24,113 bases of DNA. Source: a virus. The stretch lies in the IMG/VR virus record IMGVR_UViG_3300031857_001360, positions 1 to 24,113 of that record; one strand, given 5' to 3'. How positions within the stretch are numbered: position 1 is the first letter of the stretch; each line of letters starts with the position of its first letter. The translations under genes were made by a program, and so were the position numbers. The notes under the pieces are model-generated. The model ran no database searches. It had not been told where the DNA came from and worked only from the letters and a program-made list of their open reading frames with translations. Shown here piece by piece: positions 3,376 through 18,847 of this stretch.

Positions 3376-5406
3376 ATGTCAGATGTATTTTCTTTTCGTC
3401 TTTTGGATGAGTTTGTTAATAAATATAAGGATGTAGAGCCTCCTTTTGGCTTTACCGACGCAGGTGGCAACTCATTGGGGGAAATCACATTTATCCGTAC
3501 CTACTCAAGAGTCAAACAGGATGGTACCAAAGAACGCTGGCACGAAGTTTGTAAGCGTGTGATTGAAGGTATGTACTCAGTGCAAAAGAATCATGCTAAA
3601 GAAAACCGTCTTCCTTGGAATGACAATAAGGCACAAAAATCTGCCCAAGAAGCCTATGATCGCATGTTTAATCTTAAGTGGACTCCTCCAGGGCGTGGAC
3701 TATGGGCTTTTGGTACCCCTATGACGATGGAGAGACGCAATTCTGCAGCCTTACAGAACTGTGCCATGGTATCTACTAGGGACATTGATAGAAACGATCC
3801 TGGTGCCCTTTTTGGCTGGGTTATGGATGCCCTTATGCTTGGGGTAGGGGTAGGATTTGACACCCTTGGACAAGAAAAGGGTATGGAAATATATCCTAAT
3901 ATTAAAGAAGAAATAACATATGTAATTCCTGATACAAGAGAAGGATGGGTAGAATCTGTAAGATTACTACTTAATTCATATTTGAAACAAGGTCAGGCTA
4001 AGATTAATTTTGATTATTCTCAGATTAGACCATTAGGTGCACCTATTAAAGGTTTTGGTGGTACTGCTTCAGGTCCAGCACCATTGATTAAATTACATGA
4101 AACTGTTCGTAAAGTAATTGGAGATAGAGCAGGAGATATTCTTGATTCTCGTGCAATTGTTGATATTGTAAATCTTATTGGAACTTGTGTAGTTGCTGGC
4201 AATGTTCGTCGTTCTGCTACTTTAGCGCTTGGTGCCCCAGAAGACGCTAACTTTATTAATCTTAAAAACTCAGAGGTATTTCCTGATAGAAACTCGTTTG
4301 ATCCAGAAAATCCAGGATGGGCATGGATGAGTAATAACTCTATTTCTGCTTCAGTAGGAACTAAGTATGAAGATTATGTGGATTTAATTGCAGATAATGG
4401 AGAACCAGGATTTATTTGGCTTGATGTTGCTCGTAATTTCGGTCGTCTTGCAGATTCTGCAGATGGAAAAGATTATCGTGTAATGGGCTTTAACCCATGT
4501 GCAGAGCAACCACTAGAATCTTACGAACTTTGTACACTTGTTGAAGTACATTTGAATCGCCATGAATCTAAAGAAGATTTCTTACGTACTTTGAAGTTTG
4601 CATATTTGTATGGTAAGACAGTTACTCTTGTTCCTACACATTGGCAGATTACAAATGGCATCATGCAGCGTAATCGTCGTATTGGAACATCTCTTACTGG
4701 CATTGCGTCATTTGCAGATCAAAAGGGTTTGCCAGCAGTTCGTGAATGGATGGACGAAGGATACAAGACGATTCGTAAATATGATCATTCATATTCTGAA
4801 TGGCTATGTGTTCGTGAATCAATTCGTGTAACAACCGTTAAGCCATCAGGTTCAGTTTCACTGCTATCTGGTGCAACTCCAGGAGTTCACTGGGGTCCAG
4901 GAGGAAACTTCTTCCTTCGTGCAATTCGCTTTGGAAACCAAGATCCAATGATTAGTTTGTTTAAAGCAGCAGGGTACAAAATGGAAGCAGATCTTGTATC
5001 ACAAAATACAACTGTTGTATATTTCCCAGTTCATTCTGGTCACCCACGCTCTGAGAAAGATGTAACATTGTTTGAAAAGATTGGTCTTGCTGCTACAACA
5101 CAAAAGTATTGGTCAGACAATGGTGTTTCTGTTACTCTTTCATTTGATAAAGAAAAAGAAACAGAGCATATTGCTCCAGCACTTCACATGTATGAGGGGC
5201 AGTTAAAGGCTGTATCTTTCTTGCCTATGGGAAATAAGACATATCCTCAGCAACCATATACTCAGATTACAAAAGATGAATATAACGCATACATTGGGCA
5301 AATCAAGAAGATTAATTGGTCTGCTATTTATGACGGGGTAGATAATTTAGAGGCTGAAGGAGAGGCATACTGCACTACAGATACTTGCATGATAAAAATA
5401 TCTTAA
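3376..5406 (+). CDS. nrdJ: Adenosylcobalamin-dependent ribonucleoside-triphosphate reductase (class II)
   Basis: 676 residues, within the range of monomeric class II reductases (the Lactobacillus leichmannii enzyme is ~739). It reduces ribonucleoside triphosphates to deoxy forms using a B12-derived thiyl radical, supplying dNTPs for phage DNA synthesis in the cytoplasm. The key residues are visible: Cys129 in 'LQNCAMVST', the radical Cys375 and Glu377 in 'NPCAEQPLESYELC' with Cys386 eleven residues later, and the C-terminal shuttle pair Cys666/Cys671 in 'CTTDTC'. This matches the C119, C408/E410, C419 and C731/C736 pattern of the Lactobacillus enzyme. 'VKPSGSVSLLSGATPGVHWG' is the conserved loop late in the barrel. 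The gene looks intact, with no intein. It has its own promoter region and lies between fibre and head genes, away from any other nucleotide gene visible here. The ribosome site before ATG 3376 is poor. Confidence 0.93.
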   Translation: MSDVFSFRLLDEFVNKYKDVEPPFGFTDAGGNSLGEITFIRTYSRVKQDGTKERWHEVCKRVIEGMYSVQKNHAKENRLPWNDNKAQKSAQEAYDRMFNLKWTPPGRGLWAFGTPMTMERRNSAALQNCAMVSTRDIDRNDPGALFGWVMDALMLGVGVGFDTLGQEKGMEIYPNIKEEITYVIPDTREGWVESVRLLLNSYLKQGQAKINFDYSQIRPLGAPIKGFGGTASGPAPLIKLHETVRKVIGDRAGDILDSRAIVDIVNLIGTCVVAGNVRRSATLALGAPEDANFINLKNSEVFPDRNSFDPENPGWAWMSNNSISASVGTKYEDYVDLIADNGEPGFIWLDVARNFGRLADSADGKDYRVMGFNPCAEQPLESYELCTLVEVHLNRHESKEDFLRTLKFAYLYGKTVTLVPTHWQITNGIMQRNRRIGTSLTGIASFADQKGLPAVREWMDEGYKTIRKYDHSYSEWLCVRESIRVTTVKPSGSVSLLSGATPGVHWGPGGNFFLRAIRFGNQDPMISLFKAAGYKMEADLVSQNTTVVYFPVHSGHPRSEKDVTLFEKIGLAATTQKYWSDNGVSVTLSFDKEKETEHIAPALHMYEGQLKAVSFLPMGNKTYPQQPYTQITKDEYNAYIGQIKKINWSAIYDGVDNLEAEGEAYCTTDTCMIKIS

Positions 5407-5407
5407 C

Positions 5408-5416
5408 TGATATAAT
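5408..5416 (+). promoter_or_regulatory. Extended -10 promoter before the LamG-like structural gene
   Basis: TGATATAAT directly follows the reductase stop codon (5404-5406). The predicted start near 5423 gives a leader of about 11 bases that consists almost only of the ribosome site AAGGAG (5424-5429). Confidence 0.6.
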
Positions 5417-5433
5417 TAGAAGCAAGGAGAACT

Positions 5434-8400
5434 ATGTCCATACCCTCTAATCTATACGCCGAAAAGGTATATTCAGAGCAACCACAAATCCTGTGGTCTT
5501 TGGATGATCAGGCTGACTATATAAGCCTAATAACAGAAGCACAAAGAGATATTTCGGATGCATGGACCTTAGATGACTGCACAGCCACAACATCTATCAT
5601 TGATATAAATCAACCATTTGAGGATAGTGTTTTAAATTTAATAGAAGGAGACGTTCCTTCAACAAGTTCTTTAACAATACAGTGTGTTAGTGAAAATCTA
5701 GTTAATTTTACAGATTTAAATACGGATCTTGGTACTCTAACTATTGGTGGATACTTTTATTCAAACAGCGCATACTTAACACAAGTACAAATTGGATTTG
5801 AATATACTGATACAACAACATCCCAAATAGTGCAAAACCTTAAAAGTTTTAATACTACAATATTCCAGTCTTGGAGTTTTATATCTGAGACTTTTGATAT
5901 ACCAAATGAAAATACAGATTTTAGGGTTGTTTTAAAATTTACATATAACAGCGGAGGTAGCGCTCCTGATCAGTATCAGTTCTATATAAATGGAATTACT
6001 GCTGGTCAATGGTCTGAAGAATTTAATGCTATATCTCTTGGCGTAATTCCAATTTCCCTACCCTCAACAATTGCACTAACTGCAGATGCTGCTGTTGCTG
6101 CAGACGCATATGGTTTAGGCGGAGAGTCTGGATACTATCTTGTAGCAGATAATGCTCTTGTTGCAAGAAATAGCGGTGTTCCAATGGTGTTTGGTGCAAC
6201 TGGTGTTACTAGAATATCTCCAAACAATGGCAATAAACCATCTTTAATAGTTCCAGGTCAAGGATTTTTAAATGAACTTGGTAAATTTAAAGATTACACC
6301 GTTGAGTTTTGGATTAGAGTTAATTCAAATGCATATCAGCCAAAAAGAATATTTGGACCAATATCTTCTTCTGACGGCTTATATGTAGAATCTGGATTTT
6401 TAACACTTGTTATTGGTAAGCAATTTTCTTCACACTTTGTTGGAGAATGGTTTAGACCAATGCTTGTTCATATTAGATTAATTAGAAATAATGCAAGTGT
6501 ATTGATTAATGGAGAAGAAGTAATCAGTATTCCGCTTGAAACAGATAATTTAACGCTTCCCGCACAAATTGACAATACTGGGGATAGTCAAGATTGGCTT
6601 GGATTTTATGCATATGAAGATGTAACACCAATTGAAATTGACTGTGTTGCAATTTATCCATATTCCGTCTCTATAAGTGTTGCAAAGCGTAGATGGGTGT
6701 ATGGACAAGGTGTTTTATCACCAGAGGTAATTAACGCCGCCTATGGCGGTATACAGGCTTTTATTGACTATCCATTTGCAGACTATACGGCAAACTATAC
6801 ATATCCAGATTTTGCACAATGGGAGCAGGGTAGTTTTGATAACCTTGCAACAACAACCACATCTCTTTCAACACCACCCTATTCATTACCTGAAATATTT
6901 TTGGGATCTAAAACATTACAAGACCTTTATGATGATAATCAAGCAATACAAACCTCTGGAGATAAGTTTATAACTTTTAGACCAAATATTTCTTGGGACA
7001 CGGAAGAGTGTTATTTTAACTTTCCAAGACTCAGTATTTTAAATGCAGAAATTAATACTTTATACGGAGTATTTTCTTCTGATGATTTAGCCACAGAAGA
7101 AACTCTGTTTAAAATCTATAACAGGCTGACTGGTAACTATTTTTCTATTCGTAAAGACCTAGATGAAGTTCATTATTATTTATATTTTAATGGAGAAGAA
7201 GAAGAAATTTATACAACTGACATAATTGTTGTAGATGAAAAATACGCAGCAGGTATCAAAATAGATGAACTTGTTTTATTTTTTGGCGGAAATGTTGCAT
7301 CATTTTTTGGAAATCGTAATGGTCTAGAAATGTATGTTGGTGGAGATGAAACTGGAACGCTTCAATTTACTGGCAAAATATATTCAGTAGGTCTTTGCAC
7401 TGCTTATAATGCAAACTCTATTTCTTCTCACTTTGAAGAAAACGGAACTGCTATTCTTGATAGTTATTTGGCTACTGGATCAGAGGAGTCTGCAAATGCT
7501 AAGGCTTTGCTTGAGCATACTGCTAGTTATACACTTTTACCATCAGAGGCATATGACACATATTTCTTAGACATAGGTGTTTCTGGTTATTGGGAAGACT
7601 ACTTGCCGTTATCATATTTTGCACAGTCAGTAGCAAATGATGTTGGAAATACATACTATGACCTAGATTTTCTTCAGTTCAATATTGGCTATCCATCTCC
7701 TACAAGATTAACGGAATATGAAGAAACAGGTTCTTGGACCTACAATGAATTAAAAGAAGAATATTCTCACCCACTTCAAGAAACCTATTTGCAACTAGAC
7801 AACAGCCTATTGACTGGCTGGGACAACTATCAAGATATGGAAGAAAAGGCTCTTAAGTATTTTGAATATGACACTACAGATGCTGTTATCAGAAGTTATA
7901 TAACTTTGCAATATATTGCAGAAGGTGCTAATGCTCCAATGTCAGATTTTCCAAATTATGTTCCGCCAAAAGAAGATAGAATTATTAATATTGACGAGTA
8001 CTCAAATTGGTTAACTACAAGATTTGAAGTTGTTGACAATACCTTGATTTATCCAACAAAAACTGTAGACTTTAATAATTTGGCAGTAGTTTATCATTTA
8101 GATTTTAACATTCGTGGTATTTTAAGAAAGCCAATAAGGTTGCGTAGACTTGAACTAACTTCTCAGGCATTTAATGATAATTCATTTAACCCAATCGGAA
8201 CACGATTTGGTGTAAATATGTTCCCATACACTCGTGCTGGACTATATTATGATTATAAGGCTAAAAATCCATTTAGCATTTATAAAGGAAGTACCCCATA
8301 TCTTTATCTCAACAGAACATCTGGCATAGAAGTTCGTGGAGATTTTAATCCACTAATTTCTCGTGGTATATCTGTTCCAGTTAATTCAACAATAGCAGAT

Positions 8401-9051
8401 AACTATCGTATTAGTGCAACTCAGATATGGATGAGATATGATCAAGATCAATTCCCAGCAATTCCTACAGAAGTGTTTGAAATTGTTTATAAAGGAGATA
8501 CCATCAAGTTTTACATGGTTGCCTCTAACCCAGATGGTAGTAGAGCAAGAGTATATGCACAAAGCCTAGCAACTGGTCAAACATTTAATGGCTTGTCGTA
8601 TTTTTGGAACGGTGCATTAGTAAGAGAACCAGTACTAACTACTAAAGAATGGGGAGTTCTTGGAATAGCATTTGCAAGTGCCCTTAACTTTGATCTATTT
8701 ATAGGAAGTATTAATTTAACTGGTCCTATGGTATTTAATAATATTGCGTTTTATCAAGCAAATAATTTACAGCAGGTTCAGAGTACACTAACACGACCAT
8801 GGCTAAAAATAAAAACTGACGGGTTTACTAATTTTGATTGGTCATACTGGGTAAATAGTTTTACGTGGGAGGGTGTACTTATTATTTCTGCTTCCGACCT
8901 TTATGGTGTCAGCCCGTCTGATGTTTATAAAACCTATATTGGAACTAACAAGATTATTCTTGATGATGATGAAGGTATGATTTTTGATGCTGAAAAAGTC
9001 AAAATATACAATGACACAACATGGACCGTAAGGTTGGGTTCAGCGGTATAG
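5434..9051 (+). CDS. Large LamG-like minor structural (tail/tip) protein, 1205 residues
   Basis: It starts at ATG 5434 with AAGGAG 4 bases upstream. The N-terminus 'LYAEKVYSEQPQILWSLDD' is a pattern I recognise from large minor structural proteins of actinobacterial phages that carry concanavalin-A/LamG-like folds. Jelly-roll segments are suggested near residues 285-410 ('YTVEFWIRVN', 'DWLGFYAYED', 'IDCVAIYPY'), 565-655 ('YFSIRK', 'GLEMYVGGDE', 'FTGKIYSVGL') and 1020-1100 ('DTIKFYMVA', 'LGIAFAS'). The conserved end 'VSPSDVYKTYIGTNKII' followed by acidic 'DDDEGMIFDAEKVKIYND' closes the protein. It is strongly aromatic and acidic, with no signal peptide or membrane segment. Likely role: virion surface or tail-tip protein that may bind carbohydrate. 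It sits just upstream of the portal module, an unusual place for a tip protein, so a head-surface role is also possible. Confidence 0.75.
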   Translation: MSIPSNLYAEKVYSEQPQILWSLDDQADYISLITEAQRDISDAWTLDDCTATTSIIDINQPFEDSVLNLIEGDVPSTSSLTIQCVSENLVNFTDLNTDLGTLTIGGYFYSNSAYLTQVQIGFEYTDTTTSQIVQNLKSFNTTIFQSWSFISETFDIPNENTDFRVVLKFTYNSGGSAPDQYQFYINGITAGQWSEEFNAISLGVIPISLPSTIALTADAAVAADAYGLGGESGYYLVADNALVARNSGVPMVFGATGVTRISPNNGNKPSLIVPGQGFLNELGKFKDYTVEFWIRVNSNAYQPKRIFGPISSSDGLYVESGFLTLVIGKQFSSHFVGEWFRPMLVHIRLIRNNASVLINGEEVISIPLETDNLTLPAQIDNTGDSQDWLGFYAYEDVTPIEIDCVAIYPYSVSISVAKRRWVYGQGVLSPEVINAAYGGIQAFIDYPFADYTANYTYPDFAQWEQGSFDNLATTTTSLSTPPYSLPEIFLGSKTLQDLYDDNQAIQTSGDKFITFRPNISWDTEECYFNFPRLSILNAEINTLYGVFSSDDLATEETLFKIYNRLTGNYFSIRKDLDEVHYYLYFNGEEEEIYTTDIIVVDEKYAAGIKIDELVLFFGGNVASFFGNRNGLEMYVGGDETGTLQFTGKIYSVGLCTAYNANSISSHFEENGTAILDSYLATGSEESANAKALLEHTASYTLLPSEAYDTYFLDIGVSGYWEDYLPLSYFAQSVANDVGNTYYDLDFLQFNIGYPSPTRLTEYEETGSWTYNELKEEYSHPLQETYLQLDNSLLTGWDNYQDMEEKALKYFEYDTTDAVIRSYITLQYIAEGANAPMSDFPNYVPPKEDRIINIDEYSNWLTTRFEVVDNTLIYPTKTVDFNNLAVVYHLDFNIRGILRKPIRLRRLELTSQAFNDNSFNPIGTRFGVNMFPYTRAGLYYDYKAKNPFSIYKGSTPYLYLNRTSGIEVRGDFNPLISRGISVPVNSTIADNYRISATQIWMRYDQDQFPAIPTEVFEIVYKGDTIKFYMVASNPDGSRARVYAQSLATGQTFNGLSYFWNGALVREPVLTTKEWGVLGIAFASALNFDLFIGSINLTGPMVFNNIAFYQANNLQQVQSTLTRPWLKIKTDGFTNFDWSYWVNSFTWEGVLIISASDLYGVSPSDVYKTYIGTNKIILDDDEGMIFDAEKVKIYNDTTWTVRLGSAV

Positions 9052-9053
9052 TC

Positions 9054-9062
9054 TGGTATACT
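9054..9062 (+). promoter_or_regulatory. Extended -10 promoter giving a leaderless transcript
   Basis: TGGTATACT ends 7 bases before the ATG at 9070, so transcription should begin at or one base before the start codon. A TTGGGT at 9034-9039 lies 17 bases upstream of the hexamer and is a plausible -35. No Shine-Dalgarno sequence is present. Confidence 0.6.
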
Positions 9063-9069
9063 TAAGTAC

Positions 9070-9465
9070 ATGAATCCATTAATTAGTCAAAAAACTGGTA
9101 AACCGCTTGTAAGTAATGTACGAAGAAAGGTCATTCCTAAGAGTTATGACTGGGGTTTGTATGTTTACAAGAAATCCAATGGAAAATGGTTTACAGACGG
9201 CGAAGGCAATGTTTTAAATATACCTTCTATGAAGGGTGATATTTCAAAAATAACAGAACTAAAGACTGCGGCAGTTTATTATGGCGATGATGGTGAAGGC
9301 ACTGCAGTGTTTGTGCCTGGACTAAATAGAATTAGCGAAGAAGAGCATACAGAGCAGGTAGAAAGATTAAAAAACGGTCTTATCCCATCTATGAATGATC
9401 TAGGTGCATGGCAGGCTGCTCAGGACACATTAAACAAATATGGGAAAGATATATACGAATCATGA
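9070..9465 (+). CDS. Conserved-looking hypothetical protein preceding the portal
   Basis: 131 residues, function not recognised. The N-terminal half is basic ('NVRRKVIPKSYDWGLYVYKK') with a Trp/Tyr-rich strand pattern. The C-terminal half is acidic and helical ('RISEEEHTEQVERLKNGLIP', then 'NDLGAWQAAQDTLNKYGKDI'). There is no signal peptide, membrane segment or cysteine. The stop codon overlaps the portal start (ATGA at 9462-9465), which implies coupled translation and probably matched amounts or a shared function with the portal, for example a portal or packaging accessory protein. The ATG at 9070 is chosen because a promoter -10 ends 7 bases upstream, fitting leaderless initiation; there is no ribosome site. 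Confidence 0.8.
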   Translation: MNPLISQKTGKPLVSNVRRKVIPKSYDWGLYVYKKSNGKWFTDGEGNVLNIPSMKGDISKITELKTAAVYYGDDGEGTAVFVPGLNRISEEEHTEQVERLKNGLIPSMNDLGAWQAAQDTLNKYGKDIYES

Positions 9466-11093
9466 GTGAACAATACGATTACGATTTTATTCAAGCAAGT
9501 CTTAAGACTCAAGAAGAGTTTGAAAATATTTTTAAGTCACAAGATCCTTTCGGAAAAGACTGGAATGTTCTTAAAGAATACTCTGGATTAGATCAAAACT
9601 TCAAGCGTAGAACAACAAGAAATGTTTCTAAAGTTTATGGGTATAACTCTGTTGAACCATCAGCACGTTATTTGGAAAATGCAAATGCAATTCCTATGGG
9701 TCAAGACGGTAGTGGATCAAAGCAAATTAATCCTGGCACGGTATACAGAAATGGCTATGGACTATTTGATGTAATTACTCCACCATACAATATGTATGAG
9801 TTAGCAAGTTATTATGACACTTCTTTTGCTAACCATGCTGCTATTGATGCTAAGGTAGAAAATGTTGTTGGTCTTGGATACCGATTTGATATTACAGATC
9901 GCACAATGCTTCGTTTTGAAAATAATGGCGACGAAGGAGCAGTAGAAAGAGCACGTCGTCGTATTGAAAGAATGAAATTAGAAATTCGTGAGTGGTTAGA
10001 ATCTCTTAATGATGATGACTCATTTACTACAACAATGGAAAAAATTTATACAGATCTACAGGCTACTGGAAATGGTTTTATTGAAATTGGAAGAACCGTA
10101 TCTGGTGAAGTAGGATACGTAGGTCACATCCCGTCAACAACTATTCGTGTTCGTCGTCTACGTGATGGATTCGTTCAAATCATTGGTCAAAAAGTTGTTT
10201 ATTTCCGTAACTTTGGGGCAAAGAACGTAAACCCAATGACAACAGATACAAGACCAAATGAAATTATTCATATCAAAGAATATTCTCCACTTAACACATA
10301 CTATGGTATTCCAGATATCATTTCAGCCGTTTCTTCTCTTATTGGAGACTCGCTGGCTGCTCAATACAATATTGATTATTTCCAAAATAAGGGTGCTCCA
10401 CGATACATTATTACTGTAAAGGGTGCAAAACTTTCTGCAGATGCTGAAGACAAAATGTTTAGATTTTTGCAGACTGGTCTAAAGGGACAAAATCACAGAA
10501 CCCTATACATACCACTTCCTGGAGATACAGATAATAATAAAGTTGAGTTTAAGATGGAGCCTGTTGAATCTTCAGTTCAAGAAGCATCCTTTGAAAAATA
10601 TCGTAAACAAAATCGTGATGATATTTTGGTTGCACATCAAGTTCCTATTTCAAAACTTGGTGGTTCAGACTCTGCTGCTATTGCTGCTGCTATGTCACAA
10701 GATCGTACATTCAAAGAGCAGGTGGCAAGACCAGCGCAGGCACAACTTGAAAAGATGGTTAATAAAATTATTAAAGAAAAAACAGATATTCTTGAACTAA
10801 AGTTTAATGAGATGACTTTAACAGATGAAATTGCTCAATCTCAGATTATTGAGCGATATGTTAAAACTCAGGTTATTACTCCAGATGAGGCTCGTGAAAT
10901 GCTAGATCTTCCACCAAGACCAGACGGTGATGGAAATTCTCCATTTACAATGAGTCCTCGTCAGGGGGCAGATGCTAGGGCAAATCTAGCGGGTAACCGT
11001 GAAAGAGACACAGAAAGAGCAAATAATGTATCTGATTCTCCTGCCACCATTAGTGGAAGAAATCCACAGGGTGAGGGAAGATCATCTCAATAA
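9462..11093 (+). CDS. Portal protein
   Basis: 543 residues. It forms the dodecameric ring at one capsid vertex through which DNA is packaged and ejected, and nucleates head assembly. The start is ATG 9462 in an ATGA overlap with the previous gene; a longer in-frame start at 9408 would lie inside that gene. The family fold is that of PBSX/HK97-type portals: 'PPYNMYELASYYDTS' and 'HAAIDAKVENVVGLGYRFD' in the N-terminal part, the clip/stem region 'RPNEIIHIKEYSPLNTYYGI' and 'SAVSSLIGDSLAAQYNIDYF', and the late 'ILVAHQVPISKLGGSDSAAI' followed by 'TFKEQVARPAQ'. The last ~40 residues are polar, Arg/Gly/Asn-rich and probably disordered. It leads the head module: protease-scaffold, capsid and connectors follow. 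Terminase is not adjacent upstream, unlike the usual order. Confidence 0.92.
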   Translation: MSEQYDYDFIQASLKTQEEFENIFKSQDPFGKDWNVLKEYSGLDQNFKRRTTRNVSKVYGYNSVEPSARYLENANAIPMGQDGSGSKQINPGTVYRNGYGLFDVITPPYNMYELASYYDTSFANHAAIDAKVENVVGLGYRFDITDRTMLRFENNGDEGAVERARRRIERMKLEIREWLESLNDDDSFTTTMEKIYTDLQATGNGFIEIGRTVSGEVGYVGHIPSTTIRVRRLRDGFVQIIGQKVVYFRNFGAKNVNPMTTDTRPNEIIHIKEYSPLNTYYGIPDIISAVSSLIGDSLAAQYNIDYFQNKGAPRYIITVKGAKLSADAEDKMFRFLQTGLKGQNHRTLYIPLPGDTDNNKVEFKMEPVESSVQEASFEKYRKQNRDDILVAHQVPISKLGGSDSAAIAAAMSQDRTFKEQVARPAQAQLEKMVNKIIKEKTDILELKFNEMTLTDEIAQSQIIERYVKTQVITPDEAREMLDLPPRPDGDGNSPFTMSPRQGADARANLAGNRERDTERANNVSDSPATISGRNPQGEGRSSQ

Positions 11094-11100
11094 TTGAGAA

Positions 11101-11119
11101 AGCATTATAAAGTAATGCT
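11101..11119 (+). promoter_or_regulatory. Inverted repeat overlapping the protease promoter (candidate operator)
   Basis: AGCATTA and TAATGCT form a perfect 7-bp inverted repeat around TAAAG, 7 bases after the portal stop. The right arm includes the TGC and first T of the extended -10 TGCTATAAT. No T-run follows, so a repressor or activator site fits better than a terminator. Confidence 0.4.
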
Positions 11120-11124
11120 ATAAT
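11116..11124 (+). promoter_or_regulatory. Extended -10 promoter of the protease-scaffold gene
   Basis: TGCTATAAT ends 9 bases before the ATG at 11134. Transcription would start about 11131-11134, giving a leader of 0-3 bases with no ribosome site. It would drive the protease, scaffold and perhaps capsid genes. Confidence 0.55.
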
Positions 11125-11133
11125 AATACTGCC

Positions 11134-12453
11134 ATGACTATAAATAAAGCACACTGGATTACTGATGGCGACAATGTTCGCTTTTCGATGCCTATCGGAA
11201 AGATTGACAAAGATCGTCGAATCGTATCTGGTTTCGCTACCCTTGACAATGTTGATAAGCAAAATGACATTGTTACTACAGAAGCAAGTATAGACGCTTT
11301 TAAAAAGTTTCGTGGTAATCTACGTGAAATGCATCAGCCAACTGCTGTTGGTAAAGTAGTTTCATTTAAAGAGGATCGTTATTTTGATCCGCAAACAAGA
11401 AAATTTTATAGTGGAGTATATGTTTCGGCATATGTTTCAAAGGGTGCACAAGATACTTGGGAAAAGGTTCTTGATGGCACACTAACTGGTTTTTCAATCG
11501 GAGGAAATATTACAAAGTCAATGGATTCCTACGATGAAGAATTAAAGAAAGCAGTAAGAATTGTTAAAGAATATGAGTTGCACGAACTATCTCTAGTAGA
11601 TAATCCAGCAAATCAGTTTGCTAATGTTATCTCTATTGAAAAGGGACAACTCGGAGGGTACTTAGCAAAAGCAGTCATTGATACAGTTTATTGGTGCAAT
11701 ACAGATGACATTGTAAGACTATCAAAAGAGTCTGATGAAACTTGTCCAACATGTAGTGGATCAATGAAGAATATTGGTTTTGTGGAAGATCAAAACGATA
11801 TTGAAACAGTAAAGTTCTTAGTTGATAGTGCAAAAGGCATTAGGACAATTAAGATTACAAAGGAGGAAAATCCTATGACAGAAGAAACTGTTATTGCAGA
11901 AGAGACACTAGTTGTCGCAGATGCAACAAAAGTTGAAAATGTTGAGGTTGCTCCAGAGGCTCCAGCAGAAGACGCTGTAGCAGAGGCTACTGAAGTTGTT
12001 GCAGAAGCAGCAGCAGAAGAGCCAGTAGCAGAGGCAGTGGCAGAAGAGGATGCACCAGTTGCAGACGCTCCTGTTGCTGAAGAAGCAGATGCAGCAGTAG
12101 ATGCAGTTGTTAGCGCAACTGCAGAAGTTGCAAAGTCTGTAGAAGAAATTAATAACTCTCTAACTAATGCCTTGAGCAATCTTGCTGAAACAGTTAAGGC
12201 TATGCAAGCCAATGTTGAAGCAATCACAAAGTCCCTTGAAACAGTTACAGGCGAAGTAAAGTCTGTAGCAAGTGAGGTAAGCCAAGTAAAGGGAACTTTT
12301 AATGAGTTTGGAAAGCGAGTAGATCTTGTAGAAAAAGATACTGCTTTCCGCAAGTCTGGCGATCTAGGCGAGATCGTGCAGGAACCTGTACGTCAGGTTC
12401 AAAAATCCCTATGGGGCGGTCGTTTCCTCACAAATGCCGACCTATTTAGTTAA
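11134..12453 (+). CDS. Prohead maturation protease fused to a coiled-coil scaffold
   Basis: 439 residues. Residues ~15-165 match HK97-family prohead serine proteases (U35): 'RRIVSGFATLDNVDKQNDIV', His67 in 'LREMHQPTAVGKV', Ser121 in 'LTGFSIGG', then 'YELHELSLVDNPAN'. His67 and Ser121 are the likely catalytic pair. Residues ~185-215 carry Cys188 and a CPTC knuckle (Cys204, Cys207), an incomplete zinc-ribbon pattern. From Met248 the protein is a Glu/Ala/Val/Pro low-complexity acidic stretch to ~330, then a heptad-like coiled coil (~335-410, 'NALSNLAETVKAMQANVEAI'), ending in basic 'VRQVQKSLWGGRF', a plausible capsid-binding tail. The protease would cut scaffold and capsid precursor after assembly. 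It is followed at once by the capsid gene. It starts at ATG 11134 with an almost leaderless promoter. A second strong start lies inside it at 11875. Confidence 0.88.
   Translation: MTINKAHWITDGDNVRFSMPIGKIDKDRRIVSGFATLDNVDKQNDIVTTEASIDAFKKFRGNLREMHQPTAVGKVVSFKEDRYFDPQTRKFYSGVYVSAYVSKGAQDTWEKVLDGTLTGFSIGGNITKSMDSYDEELKKAVRIVKEYELHELSLVDNPANQFANVISIEKGQLGGYLAKAVIDTVYWCNTDDIVRLSKESDETCPTCSGSMKNIGFVEDQNDIETVKFLVDSAKGIRTIKITKEENPMTEETVIAEETLVVADATKVENVEVAPEAPAEDAVAEATEVVAEAAAEEPVAEAVAEEDAPVADAPVAEEADAAVDAVVSATAEVAKSVEEINNSLTNALSNLAETVKAMQANVEAITKSLETVTGEVKSVASEVSQVKGTFNEFGKRVDLVEKDTAFRKSGDLGEIVQEPVRQVQKSLWGGRFLTNADLFS
11861..11866 (+). promoter_or_regulatory. Internal ribosome binding site for a separate scaffold product
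   Basis: AGGAGG lies 8 bases before an in-frame ATG at 11875, as strong and as well spaced as the site of the major capsid gene. Its place exactly at the domain boundary between protease and acidic scaffold argues that it is used. Confidence 0.65.
11875..12453 (+). CDS. Nested scaffold protein from internal start (same frame as protease)
   Basis: The inferred product is 192 residues, beginning 'MTEETVIAEETLVV' at Met248 of the fusion. It would contain only the acidic low-complexity region, the coiled coil and the basic C-terminus: a classic scaffold composition. Lambda gpC/Nu3 is the known precedent, where scaffold is made in excess from an in-frame start inside the protease gene. The AGGAGG site and 8-base spacing are seen directly; that the product is made and works as scaffold is inference. 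Many copies of scaffold but few of protease are needed per capsid, and the main start at 11134 has no ribosome site, so this arrangement would give that ratio. Confidence 0.65.
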   Translation: MTEETVIAEETLVVADATKVENVEVAPEAPAEDAVAEATEVVAEAAAEEPVAEAVAEEDAPVADAPVAEEADAAVDAVVSATAEVAKSVEEINNSLTNALSNLAETVKAMQANVEAITKSLETVTGEVKSVASEVSQVKGTFNEFGKRVDLVEKDTAFRKSGDLGEIVQEPVRQVQKSLWGGRFLTNADLFS

Positions 12454-12466
12454 GGTATATTCACTT

Positions 12467-12474
12467 AGGAGGTG
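12467..12474 (+). promoter_or_regulatory. Strong ribosome binding site of the major capsid gene
   Basis: AGGAGGTG is a full anti-16S match. It decides the start: the in-frame GTG at 12472 is part of this site, so the ATG at 12481, 8 bases after AGGAGG, is the true start. A weak -10-like TATATT is at 12456-12461, without the TG extension. Confidence 0.8.
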
Positions 12475-12480
12475 AACAAT

Positions 12481-13620
12481 ATGTCGGAACAAGAAATCGT
12501 AAAGAATTATCCAGGCGCCCCAACAGTGTCGCACAATCATCAAGGTGATGGTGCTTTCGCTTCAGGTGATATCGGCGGTGCAACAGCAACCAGCCCTACC
12601 ACATCTGATATTGGTGCAAATTTGGGTAACATTGCTACTCCTGAATGGGGTGTAACTTCTGGTCCAAACGCAGTTAATCCAACTGGTACACCAGGAGGTA
12701 TTCTCCTTCCAGAACAGGCTCGCCGCTTCATCGACTATGTGTGGGATGCAACAGTTCTCGCCAAAGATGGTCGTAGAGTTACTATGCGAGCAAACACCAT
12801 GGAACTTGAAAAAGTTAACGTTGGTGAACGTGTAATCCGTGCAGCAGCACAGGCTAACAACAACTATGAAAACGCTGGTGCAACATTTACTAAGGTTGAA
12901 CTTACTACCAAGAAGATTCGTCTTGATTGGGAAGTATCAACTGAAGCACTTGAAGACAATATTGAAGGTGGTGCGCTTGAAGATCATTTAGTTCGCTTAA
13001 TGACAAACGCATTCGCAAACGATATTGAAGACCTCGCTATTAATGGCGATGGTACAACTGGCGACTTCCTTTCAATTATGGAAGGTTTCGTTTACAAAGT
13101 TGAAAATGATGGCGATGCTCACGAAGCAGCCGTCACTGTCACTGATGACAATTGGACCACAGAGGTAATGCAAGACATTATCCTTGCAATGCCACGTAAG
13201 TATCGTGCACTTAAGCAGAACCTAAAGTTCTACGCAGGCACAGATGCATTCGCAGGTATTGTTAAGAACAACGGAACACTTGCTGACGCTATTGCTGAAG
13301 CATTTGCTCCACGTACTGGTGGTACAGAGCGCAACCGTCAAGACTATCTTGATGGCATGGGTCAAACATTCGGTGGAGCACGTACAACACGTGTTCTAGG
13401 TATCGATGTTATGGAAGTACCTTACTACCCAGCAGATTATGTCGACTTGACATTCCCTGCTAACCGTGTTTGGGGCTTCCAGCGTGATATCACGGTAAAC
13501 CGTGAATACAAGCCAAAGAAGGATACAATTGAATACACAGTATTCGTCCGCTTTGGTATTCAATGGGAAGAACTTGATGCAGTTGCTTATGCAGATGCAG
13601 CAGTTGACCCAACCGCATAG
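12481..13620 (+). CDS. Major capsid protein (HK97 fold)
   Basis: 379 residues from ATG 12481. It builds the icosahedral shell. Residues 1-74 are a Gly/Pro/His-rich N-terminal region: 'YPGAPTVSHNHQGDGA' (10-25), 'LGNIATP' (48-54) and 'GTPGGI' (69-74). The core then begins: 'LLPEQARRFIDYVWDATVLA', 'VNVGERVIRAAAQANNNYEN' (an E-loop-like segment), 'LDWEVSTEALEDNIEGGALE', 'NDIEDLAINGDGTTGDF', 'VMQDIILAMPRKYRAL' and 'LKFYAGTDAFAGIV', ending in a P-domain/A-domain pattern 'VFVRFGIQWEELDAVAYA'. These segments are typical of HK97-type coats. It lies directly behind the protease-scaffold gene and has the best ribosome site in the window, as expected for the most abundant head protein. The N-terminal region has a separate paralogue encoded just downstream. 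Confidence 0.93.
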   Translation: MSEQEIVKNYPGAPTVSHNHQGDGAFASGDIGGATATSPTTSDIGANLGNIATPEWGVTSGPNAVNPTGTPGGILLPEQARRFIDYVWDATVLAKDGRRVTMRANTMELEKVNVGERVIRAAAQANNNYENAGATFTKVELTTKKIRLDWEVSTEALEDNIEGGALEDHLVRLMTNAFANDIEDLAINGDGTTGDFLSIMEGFVYKVENDGDAHEAAVTVTDDNWTTEVMQDIILAMPRKYRALKQNLKFYAGTDAFAGIVKNNGTLADAIAEAFAPRTGGTERNRQDYLDGMGQTFGGARTTRVLGIDVMEVPYYPADYVDLTFPANRVWGFQRDITVNREYKPKKDTIEYTVFVRFGIQWEELDAVAYADAAVDPTA

Positions 13621-13915: not shown

Positions 13916-13924
13916 TGATATAAT
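13916..13924 (+). promoter_or_regulatory. Extended -10 promoter before the connector operon
   Basis: TGATATAAT lies 15 bases before the ATG at 13940. The predicted start near 13931 coincides with the ribosome site GGAGG (13931-13935), so the leader would be very short. It would drive the five genes to 17009. Confidence 0.55.
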
Positions 13925-17015: not shown

Positions 17016-17024
17016 TGTTATACT
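17016..17024 (+). promoter_or_regulatory. Extended -10 promoter of the major tail gene
   Basis: TGTTATACT starts 7 bases after the upstream stop. The predicted start near 17031 leaves a 55-base leader, the longest after that of the reductase, ending in the ribosome site AGAGGTG (17073-17079). Confidence 0.6.
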
Positions 17025-17085
17025 TGTGGTGAGGAAACCCGCCAAAAACTTCATATAGATTCTATTGAAAGTAGAGGTGAAAAAT

Positions 17086-17745: not shown

Positions 17746-17780
17746 AGCCCACCACTTTTGTGGTGGGTTTAGTTGTTTTA
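17746..17780 (+). terminator. Rho-independent terminator after the major tail gene
   Basis: CCCACCAC (17748-17755) pairs perfectly with GTGGTGGG (17760-17767) over a TTTT loop, followed by TTTAGTTGTTTTA. This is the best intrinsic terminator in the window and isolates the tube gene from the chaperone genes. Confidence 0.85.
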
Positions 17781-17789
17781 TGATAGAAT
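17781..17789 (+). promoter_or_regulatory. Extended -10 promoter giving a leaderless transcript (long chaperone)
   Basis: TGATAGAAT follows the terminator directly and ends 7 bases before the ATG at 17797. The first transcribed base should therefore be at or next to the A of the ATG. No ribosome site is present (AGATAAA). Confidence 0.5.
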
Positions 17790-17796
17790 AGATAAA

Positions 17797-18480
17797 ATGG
17801 CTACAGAAGTATATAATAAAGATAATATTTTTTTAATTGACGGTAGAGAGTTAGAAATAATTCCTCTTAAGATTAAATATCTAAGAGAATTTATGACAGT
17901 CTTTCAGTCAATGAAACAAGCACAAAATGATGATGAAGCAATAGATGTTTTAACACAATGTGCTGCTATATGTTTAAAGCAATATTGTTCAGAAATAGCA
18001 TCAGAAGCAGAAGATTATTTAGATCTTCCCACAATATATAAAATTATAGATATTGCTGCTGGCATAAAAATTAATCAAGAATCTGACAATACTGTAAAAG
18101 ATCAGGCTATGCAAAAGGGATCTACTTGGCAAGAATTAGACTTGGCAAAGTTAGAGGCTGAGGTATTTGTGTTGGGTATTTGGAAAGATTATCAAGATCT
18201 AGAGTTATCATTATCAATGCCAGAACTTATGGCTACCCTTGGGAGCAAAAGAGAATTAGATTATGAAGAAAGAAAGTTTTTGGCAGCAATTCAGGGTATA
18301 GATTTAGAGGGTGCAACTAATCCAGAAAAGGGACAAAAGGAATGGGAAAATATGAAAGCCAGGGTATTCAGTAAGGGGCAAGCAAAAGATAGCAATGATG
18401 TGCTGGCTCTACAAGGTGCAAATGCAAAGAAATATGGTTTTGGCATTGGCATGGGTCTAGATTATGAAAATTTAACGTAA
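17797..18480 (+). CDS. Tail assembly chaperone, long (G-T-like) form
   Basis: 227 residues from ATG 17797; a TTG at 17773 in the same frame lies upstream of the promoter and is rejected. The N-terminal ~95 residues ('IPLKIKYLREFMTVFQSMKQ', 'LDLPTIYKIIDIAAGI') are paralogous to the next gene. The C-terminal half carries 'LEAEVFVLGIWKDYQDLELS', 'LSMPELMATLGSKRELDYEE' and 'RKFLAAIQGIDLE', the pattern of the T domain that recruits tube subunits. Such chaperones coat the tape measure before tube polymerisation. In most siphoviruses the long form is made by programmed frameshift from the short gene; here it is a complete gene of its own, placed first. It is predicted to be translated from a leaderless message. 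Confidence 0.82.
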   Translation: MATEVYNKDNIFLIDGRELEIIPLKIKYLREFMTVFQSMKQAQNDDEAIDVLTQCAAICLKQYCSEIASEAEDYLDLPTIYKIIDIAAGIKINQESDNTVKDQAMQKGSTWQELDLAKLEAEVFVLGIWKDYQDLELSLSMPELMATLGSKRELDYEERKFLAAIQGIDLEGATNPEKGQKEWENMKARVFSKGQAKDSNDVLALQGANAKKYGFGIGMGLDYENLT

Positions 18481-18492
18481 TAAGCCCCTATC

Positions 18493-18501
18493 TGATATAA
18501 T
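18493..18501 (+). promoter_or_regulatory. Extended -10 promoter of the short chaperone gene
   Basis: TGATATAAT is identical to the elements at 5408 and 13916. The predicted start near 18508 gives a 19-base leader carrying the full ribosome site AGGAGGT (18517-18523). Confidence 0.6.
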
Positions 18502-18526: not shown

Positions 18527-18847
18527 ATGGCAACAACTGAGCACGAAACAAAAGAACTTGTTCTTATGGATGGTACAAAAATCCAGGTTCGTCCTTTAAA
18601 AATCTCTCTTCTTCGTCCTTTCATGAAGAAGTTTGAGGGAGTTGCGGCGGTGGCGGATGATAACGAAAAGTCAATGACTCTTCTTATTGAATGTGTAAAA
18701 ATCGCAATGGAGCAGTATAAGCCAGAATTGGCTGACGCTGCAAAACTAGAAGAAGTTCTAGATCTGCCAACTGTTTACAAGATCGTTGAGGCTGCATCAG
18801 GTGTACAACTTGCTACAGTCGCTGACGCTCTTTCAGCAACAGCATAA
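18527..18847 (+). CDS. Tail assembly chaperone, short (G-like) form
   Basis: 106 residues from ATG 18527 with AGGAGGT 3 bases upstream. It is a paralogue of the first half of the preceding protein: both start 'MAT', then share 'L.DG', 'PLKI..LR.FM..F', 'L..C..I...QY..E.A' and 'LDLPT.YKI...A.G' in register. It lacks the T-like half and ends 'VADALSATA'. It is in the canonical place directly before the tape measure and has the stronger expression signals (perfect -10 and ribosome site), agreeing with the excess of short over long form needed in other phages. I see no slippery heptamer near its end and only 25 bases to the tape-measure start, so no room for a frameshifted extension. Confidence 0.82.
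   Translation: MATTEHETKELVLMDGTKIQVRPLKISLLRPFMKKFEGVAAVADDNEKSMTLLIECVKIAMEQYKPELADAAKLEEVLDLPTVYKIVEAASGVQLATVADALSATA

Follow-up and report, generated by a model that had tools for sequence, protein, structure and literature searches.

In Actinobacteria, leaderless genes are described, in the parts of the literature drawn on here, as carrying a TANNNT hexamer about 12 nt upstream of the start, and they have been estimated to make up ~20% of genes (PMC3160421). In mycobacteria, the mutually exclusive presence of a -10 element or a Shine-Dalgarno (SD) sequence separates leaderless from leadered genes, and a 5' ATG or GTG is given as both necessary and sufficient for leaderless translation (PMC4633059). 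Among phages, leaderless promoters were predicted for the Cluster O mycobacteriophages, i.e. Corndog and its relatives (PMC4351075). In this study, we analysed a stretch of 24,113 bases from a virus record, hereafter called the window, with respect to the start of the gene lying in front of the portal gene, a member of the phrog_9394 family. Judged by the cited portions of these works, the phrog_9394 start resembles actinobacterial leaderless genes in its hexamer 6-7 nt before the start, in having no SD and in the mutual exclusion of -10 and SD, while it differs in belonging to a phage, in a hexamer nearer to the consensus and in its TG extension (PMC3160421, PMC4633059). The Cluster O phages represent another lineage in which, in the part of the work used here, leaderlessness was predicted for a few named promoters, whereas we follow one gene through 75 distinct sequences and 18 cultured phages (PMC4351075). 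In Deinococcus-Thermus, a -10 element about 6-7 bp before the ORF likewise gives rise to leaderless mRNA; this is a different phylum, in which the arrangement was, according to the portion cited, tested experimentally, whereas the phrog_9394 start is assessed by sequence comparison (PMC12340547). Among the matches listed in literature searches on leaderless starts, phages and these hosts and families, no title dealt with the phrog_9394 gene. The leaderless arrangement as such is already known in actinobacteria; with the phrog_9394 start, a further example is added that is new and conserved in depth.

Architecture and conservation of the phrog_9394 start

The hexamer TATACT (9057-9062, + strand) is preceded by TGG (9054-9056), and together they form the extended -10 element TGGTATACT (9054-9062, +). 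It is followed by the 7-nt spacer TAAGTAC (9063-9069, +), which holds no SD, and by the ATG at 9070, so that the -10 ends 7 nt before the start codon just as the sequence-only reading had noted. The gene (9070-9465, +; 131 aa) was assigned to phrog_9394 with an E-value of 3e-24 and is predicted to be leaderless; its stop overlaps, in an ATGA, the start of the portal gene (9462-11093, +; phrog_12, Pfam Phage_portal). The upstream gene 5434 ends with TAG at 9049-9051 in the frame of ATG 9070, leaving a gap of 18 nt. Since ATG, GTG and TTG are absent between this TAG and 9070, and the next in-frame candidate is the TTG at 9157 (codon 30), ATG 9070 is the sole plausible in-frame start. Searches with the protein itself yielded neither a Pfam match (E 0.001) nor an NCBIfam match (0.1) nor a convincing hit among solved structures (best E 0.36), and its AlphaFold model is of low confidence (mean pLDDT 67.5, pTM 0.50).

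Dinucleotide shuffles of the window yielded at least one TGNTATA[AC]T N6-8 ATG in 51 of 500 cases and TGGTATACT somewhere in 48 of 500; a single site by itself, taken from the window alone, is within chance. The full set of sites is a different matter: TGNTATA[AC]T occurs 8 times on the + strand and 0 times on the - strand, all 8 falling inside the 654 bases (2.7% of the window) which lie outside the gene list, and none of the 500 shuffles reached 8 (mean 1.5, maximum 6). The window therefore bears one promoter-like element type in front of many genes. The generic form TANNNT N6-8 RTG is not enriched in the window, with 59 occurrences compared to a shuffle mean of 57.

Relatives were chosen by protein similarity among viral contigs, taking the best 80 per list, which resulted in 144 loci. 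Hits were omitted if the match began after query residue 25, lay on the other strand, lacked a start codon or had less than 60 nt of upstream DNA, and 135 of the 144 loci provided usable DNA upstream of the phrog_9394 gene, 75 of them distinct. This 75-row set leaves out the window and the loci found by motif and is the count to rely on, while a set of 81 rows (74 in the column table) takes in the window and some motif-found loci. For three rows with a raw distance of 12, the start was moved to the nearest ATG lying 5 nt or more past the hexamer, giving a spacing of 6. Among the 75 distinct relatives, which are non-independent with proteins 67-100% identical to that of the window, the extended -10 is present in every case as TGNTATA[ACG]T (TGGTATACT in 67, TGCTATACT in 6, TGATATACT in 1 and TGCTATAAT in 1), and it ends 7 nt before the ATG in 70 and 6 nt before it in 5. 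The earlier claim that there is no ribosome site was borne out as well, with an SD-like tetramer in 0 of the 75; in the region from -22 to -4, 75 of the 81 upstreams match AAGGAGGTGA over 3-4 nt at most, and the other 6 show no match of at least 3 nt. In 70 sequences, the nine motif columns hold 1.95 bits per column and the spacer 1.0, compared to 0.95-1.42 bits at codon positions 1 and 2 of the gene and 0.41-1.05 bits at position 3. The non-coding motif is kept tighter than the protein, which suggests that it is under selection.

Directly 5' of the ATG, 51 of the 75 distinct relatives have a T and the other 24 a C, so that a purine is never found there. RNA polymerase favours a purine after a pyrimidine as start, so this pyrimidine fits initiation at the A of the ATG, and the spacing would place ATG 9070 at the 5' terminus of the RNA. 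In rows reading GTAC-ATG, the window included, the A two bases upstream (A9068 in the window) could serve as a start too, giving a 2-nt leader; the RNA would therefore begin at A9070 or A9068. The leaderless assignment of the sequence-only reading is in agreement with all 75 relatives and all 18 cultured phages described below, but its placement of the RNA start at the A or one base before it was perhaps slightly narrow. As a side observation, 39 of the 81 distinct upstreams (e.g. L101, L102, L142) contain an extra ATG or GTG one base 3' of the -10 hexamer. At a spacing of 7 it sits 6 nt before the main ATG, where it could be used only on a longer transcript.

A TTGGGT located 17 nt upstream of TATACT (9034-9039, +) had been proposed as the corresponding -35. 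These letters are indeed present and agree with TTGACA at 3 of 6 positions, but the role assigned to them did not hold, since TTGGGT is kept at the -35 place in only 4 of 74 rows, one of them the row of the window, and lies inside the coding sequence of the upstream gene. We therefore rejected it as a -35, and it is probably no functional element. A consensus promoter scan of 5000-13000 did not list the TTGGGT/TATACT pair. At a distance of 17 nt, the 75 distinct relatives match TTGACA at 1, 2, 3 and 4 of 6 positions in 26, 26, 22 and 1 cases, respectively, so that the conserved -35 of a classical -35/-10 sigma-70 promoter was not found among them, while the extended -10 of sigma-70/SigA type (TGN-TATAAT-like) was found in the window and in 75 of 75. 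With the -35 not conserved, the promoter of the metagenomic lineage is to be regarded as one of extended -10 type and TTGGGT as incidental.

Cultured relatives and the putative host

At E 0.01, relatives of the phrog_9394 protein were found in 135 phage-collection records, 127 from Streptomyces and 8 from Rhodococcus phages, of which 18 (14 Streptomyces, 4 Rhodococcus) make up our cultured set. The Stanwilliamsviridae of Streptomyces and the related Rhodococcus phages show the same order of phrog_9394 gene, portal and protease and the same leaderless-type starts, although many of them carry one additional gene between portal and protease and their phrog_9394 proteins are about 32-44% identical to that of the window; the portal is 44-45% identical to that of the best Streptomyces phages. 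The window, a 24 kb fragment, thus has a gene order similar to that of a Stanwilliamsviridae-like lineage and head genes homologous to its own.

TANN[AC]T precedes the phrog_9394 start in 18 of 18 cultured phages, at 6 nt in 13 and at 7 nt in 5, while it is found 6-7 nt before 27 of 1969 other + strand ATGs of the same loci. For the protease start, 17 of the 18 phages show such a hexamer, 14 of them at 6 nt and 3 at 9 nt; in Wofford, where two ATGs lie close together, the one 6 nt past the annotated protease start was used. At the portal start, none of the 18 has a hexamer at 5-9 nt, and 16 carry an SD-like tetramer. Before the phrog_9394 gene, SD-like tetramers within 20 nt are restricted to four of the 18 (Francob, Annadreamy, Comrade and Blueeyedbeauty), and their AAGG adjoins the 5' side of the hexamer and hence falls outside the predicted RNA; Trina has an AAGG at -6, within the spacer. 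The base before the ATG is A in 3 of 18. A TTG at the -35 with a 17-nt spacer is present in 14 of the 18 cultured phages, in contrast to the metagenomic lineage, which lacks it. Reading of the sequences of the Boydwoodruffvirinae revealed in 8 of 8 a hairpin with a T-run in the gap just 5' of the hexamer; a hairpin scan of two of these phages reported it in Wofford and not in Samisti12. The position of hairpin and T-run directly before the promoter leaves scant room for anything except a very short leader.

Among the cultured phages (L261-L278), the gene 5' of the phrog_9394 gene shows a hexamer in 12 of 16, at a distance of 6-9 nt from its start, whereas gene 5434 of the metagenomic lineage has its -10 farther away and an SD, as detailed in the following section. 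Homology of gene 5434 to the gene at the same place in these 16 phages could not be established (best E 0.022).

Concerning the host, the actinobacterial origin hinted at by the sequence-only reading agrees with the hosts of the cultured relatives and with WhiB (Pfam PF02467), which is encoded in 3 of 6 large relatives and, among 14 control genomes, in Corynebacterium glutamicum only; the occurrence of WhiB is in line with such a host. Planktophila is a freshwater actinobacterium, and we consider Candidatus Planktophila a putative host type. In 400 kb of one genome of Candidatus Planktophila versatilis, with starts taken from mechanical ORFs, the 285 starts include 57 with a TANNNT ending 6 nt upstream and 14 with one ending 7 nt upstream, compared to 9 (6 nt) and 21 (7 nt) of 1988 internal ATGs, so about a quarter of its genes (71/285) look leaderless by this measure. 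This spacing signal, too, fits an actinobacterial host. The spacing differs, being mostly 6 in Planktophila and mostly 7 before the phrog_9394 gene. The exact form TATAAT N7 ATG was found 4 times in four acI-type genomes (two Planktophila, two IMCC isolates), compared to 6 times in the reversed control; without enrichment, the exact form of the phage is not the usual one in these genomes. The window also carries a gene for a B12-dependent type ribonucleotide reductase (RNR; 3376-5406) amid its structural genes, and in Streptomyces phage Francob an RNR gene lies two genes before the counterpart of gene 5434. A search for the host via the RNR gene returned 30 genome-contig stretches fitting the pattern, none of which encoded a relative.

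Two classes of start in the window and its relatives

To survey the spacing, every distinct TGNTATA[AC]T (378) in the 144 loci was assigned to the next ORF ATG 4-44 nt away, with 102 of the 378 sites having none in this range. Two classes emerged, in counts to which a few portal-proximal gene families contribute most and which are non-independent. In 148 sites the -10 lies 5-11 nt before the ATG, with an SD-like tetramer in 11, which in the rows read is the AGGA of the protease leader; 0 sites fall at 12-14 nt; and 120 sites fall at 15-37 nt, with an SD-like tetramer in 119. A further 8 sites lie at 41 nt, 0 of them with SD. The mirrored motif was used as control (131 sites, 112 without ATG); distances of 7 and 9 nt to an ATG did not occur, while 6 nt was seen for 4 sites and 12 nt for 11.

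The short class includes the phrog_9394 gene, the head maturation protease and, under the looser pattern TGNTANNNT, gene 17797; since the starts of the latter two are built like that of the phrog_9394 gene, this gene is not special in this respect. In front of the protease, the extended -10 TGC-TATAAT (11116-11124, +) ends 9 nt before ATG 11134. Of 69 distinct relatives, 68 have the element at 9-10 nt and all 69 a purine at -3, which suggests a predicted 3-nt leader, GCC in the window. Just 5' of this promoter, a 15-base palindrome TCTCAATAATTGAGA (11085-11099) extends across the portal stop codon; it or a near form is kept in many relatives, and some carry TCCACATAATATCCACAT in its place. Gene 17797 (phrog_10504) represents a candidate third start of leaderless type: the extended -10 TGA-TAGAAT (TGATAGAAT; 17781-17789, +) ends 7 nt before the ATG without SD, and of 23 distinct relatives, 21 have the end of the element at 6-9 nt from the ATG and the remaining 2 at 14 nt, with SD-like tetramers in 0 of 23. 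Its promoter is directly preceded by an intrinsic-terminator-like hairpin (17746-17769, +), followed by TAGTTGTTTT. The neighbouring genes 17797-18480 and 18527-18847 both belong to phrog_10504, and the first has the leaderless-type start after the terminator-like hairpin while the second is leadered.

Four genes provide the contrast of leadered starts with SD. The extended -10 lies 22 nt before GTG 2085 (2054-2062, +), 17 nt before ATG 5434 (5408-5416, +), 15 nt before ATG 13940 (13916-13924, +) and 25 nt before ATG 18527 (18493-18501, +). Of 29 distinct relatives of gene 2085, 27 have it at 22-32 nt and all 29 carry an SD-like tetramer; of 41 distinct relatives of gene 5434, 38 have it at 15-17 nt and all 41 carry such a tetramer. 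For gene 13940, the element is present in 35 of 36 relatives, 33 of them with a distance of 15-24 nt and single ones with 0 and 5 nt, and an SD-like tetramer in 33 of 36; for gene 18527, the element is present in 24 of 25, 23 of them with a distance of 24-29 nt and a single one with 6 nt, and an SD-like tetramer in 23 of 25. Loose counts on mechanical ORF calls in three large relatives, covering 100 kb apiece and without background subtraction, gave the leaderless-type signal for 21 of 141, 23 of 128 and 26 of 136 genes. A further observation concerns the leader (17016-17085) of gene 17086 (Ig-domain family, phrog_2175), in which 28 of 28 distinct relatives hold an extended -10 together with a GAGGAAAC block, at 17031-17038 in the window, followed by GCC in 24 of 28 and by a AGAGGTGA ribosome site in 25 of 28; the block has no obvious role.

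Proposed model, rival explanations and meaning

We propose a model in which the host housekeeping RNA polymerase (sigma-70/SigA type) would read the extended -10 at 9054-9062 and begin transcription on the A of ATG 9070 or no more than two bases away, producing a leaderless phrog_9394 mRNA. The ribosome would initiate directly on the 5'-terminal AUG, without SD contact, and the same transcript would continue into the portal gene, whose start overlaps the phrog_9394 stop; given the ATGA overlap, the portal is probably co-transcribed and translationally coupled. RNA start, sigma factor, leaderless translation and co-transcription are elements which we infer. From sequence comparison, we hold it highly probable that the extended -10 drives a leaderless mRNA of this gene.

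The rival which deserves most attention is that the gene is mainly translated from a longer read-through mRNA of gene 5434, with ribosomes restarting after the TAG at 9049 and the -10 being of minor importance. All accepted genes of the window run in one direction, the gap is short, the downstream portal has an overlapping ATGA start, and the extra ATG or GTG in 39 of 81 upstreams could serve as another start. Such a scenario leaves the retention of the -10 at 1.95 bits per column and the fixed spacing unexplained, and in the eight cultured Boydwoodruffvirinae the gap contains, by reading of their sequences, hairpins with a T-run, yet hexamer and spacing are retained; we therefore regard it as improbable. 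A fusion of gene 5434 to the phrog_9394 gene by amber read-through of TAG 9049-9051, which would render an own start signal unneeded, could draw on the shared frame and the single stop between both genes. The triplet at this place, though, is TAA in 58 and TAG in 8 of the 75 distinct relatives, an in-frame stop is found at -21 in 62 of 75, with a second at -6 in 21 of those 62 (13 of 75 rows have none at either position), and genes of the window end in TAA, TAG and TGA alike, so that we give this fusion next to no credence.

It could further be argued that the promoter is real, but that the conserved block is chiefly an operator or regulator site, for instance the 10-bp palindrome TACTTAAGTA (9059-9068), and that the ATG spacing is incidental. 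This palindrome is perfect in the window, but it is retained in 4 of 75 distinct relatives, and the part which is kept, and which is found again before other genes of the window, is the -10 element alone; an operator is thus very unlikely to be the main reason for conservation. A chance promoter-like match in AT-rich DNA would be compatible with the shuffles which produced a site near an ATG, but the arrangement recurs in each of the 75 relatives and in each of the 18 cultured phages, which leaves coincidence with a very small probability. The leaderless start driven by the extended -10 accordingly stands as our preferred reading.

Going beyond this model, selection acting on translation might have kept leaderless starts in the head module, in phages infecting Streptomyces and Rhodococcus as well as in those of uncultured actinobacteria. 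The phage might rely on direct 70S initiation late in infection, which would favour such transcripts when leadered initiation is limited, and the phrog_9394 start would be an ancestral fixed point. We consider this extension speculative and rather unlikely.

In practical terms, the two classes provide a start-calling rule for these contigs, with a -10 either 5-11 nt ahead of the start, in most cases lacking an SD, or 15-37 nt ahead and accompanied by one, and the existence of cultured Streptomyces relatives makes the leaderless reading directly testable. The phrog_9394 gene offers a firm comparative case for a leaderless start in the structural module of tailed actinophages, which can be followed at the same gene in both cultured soil phages and uncultured phages. 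Otherwise, the arrangement is as expected for phages relying on actinobacterial transcription and translation.
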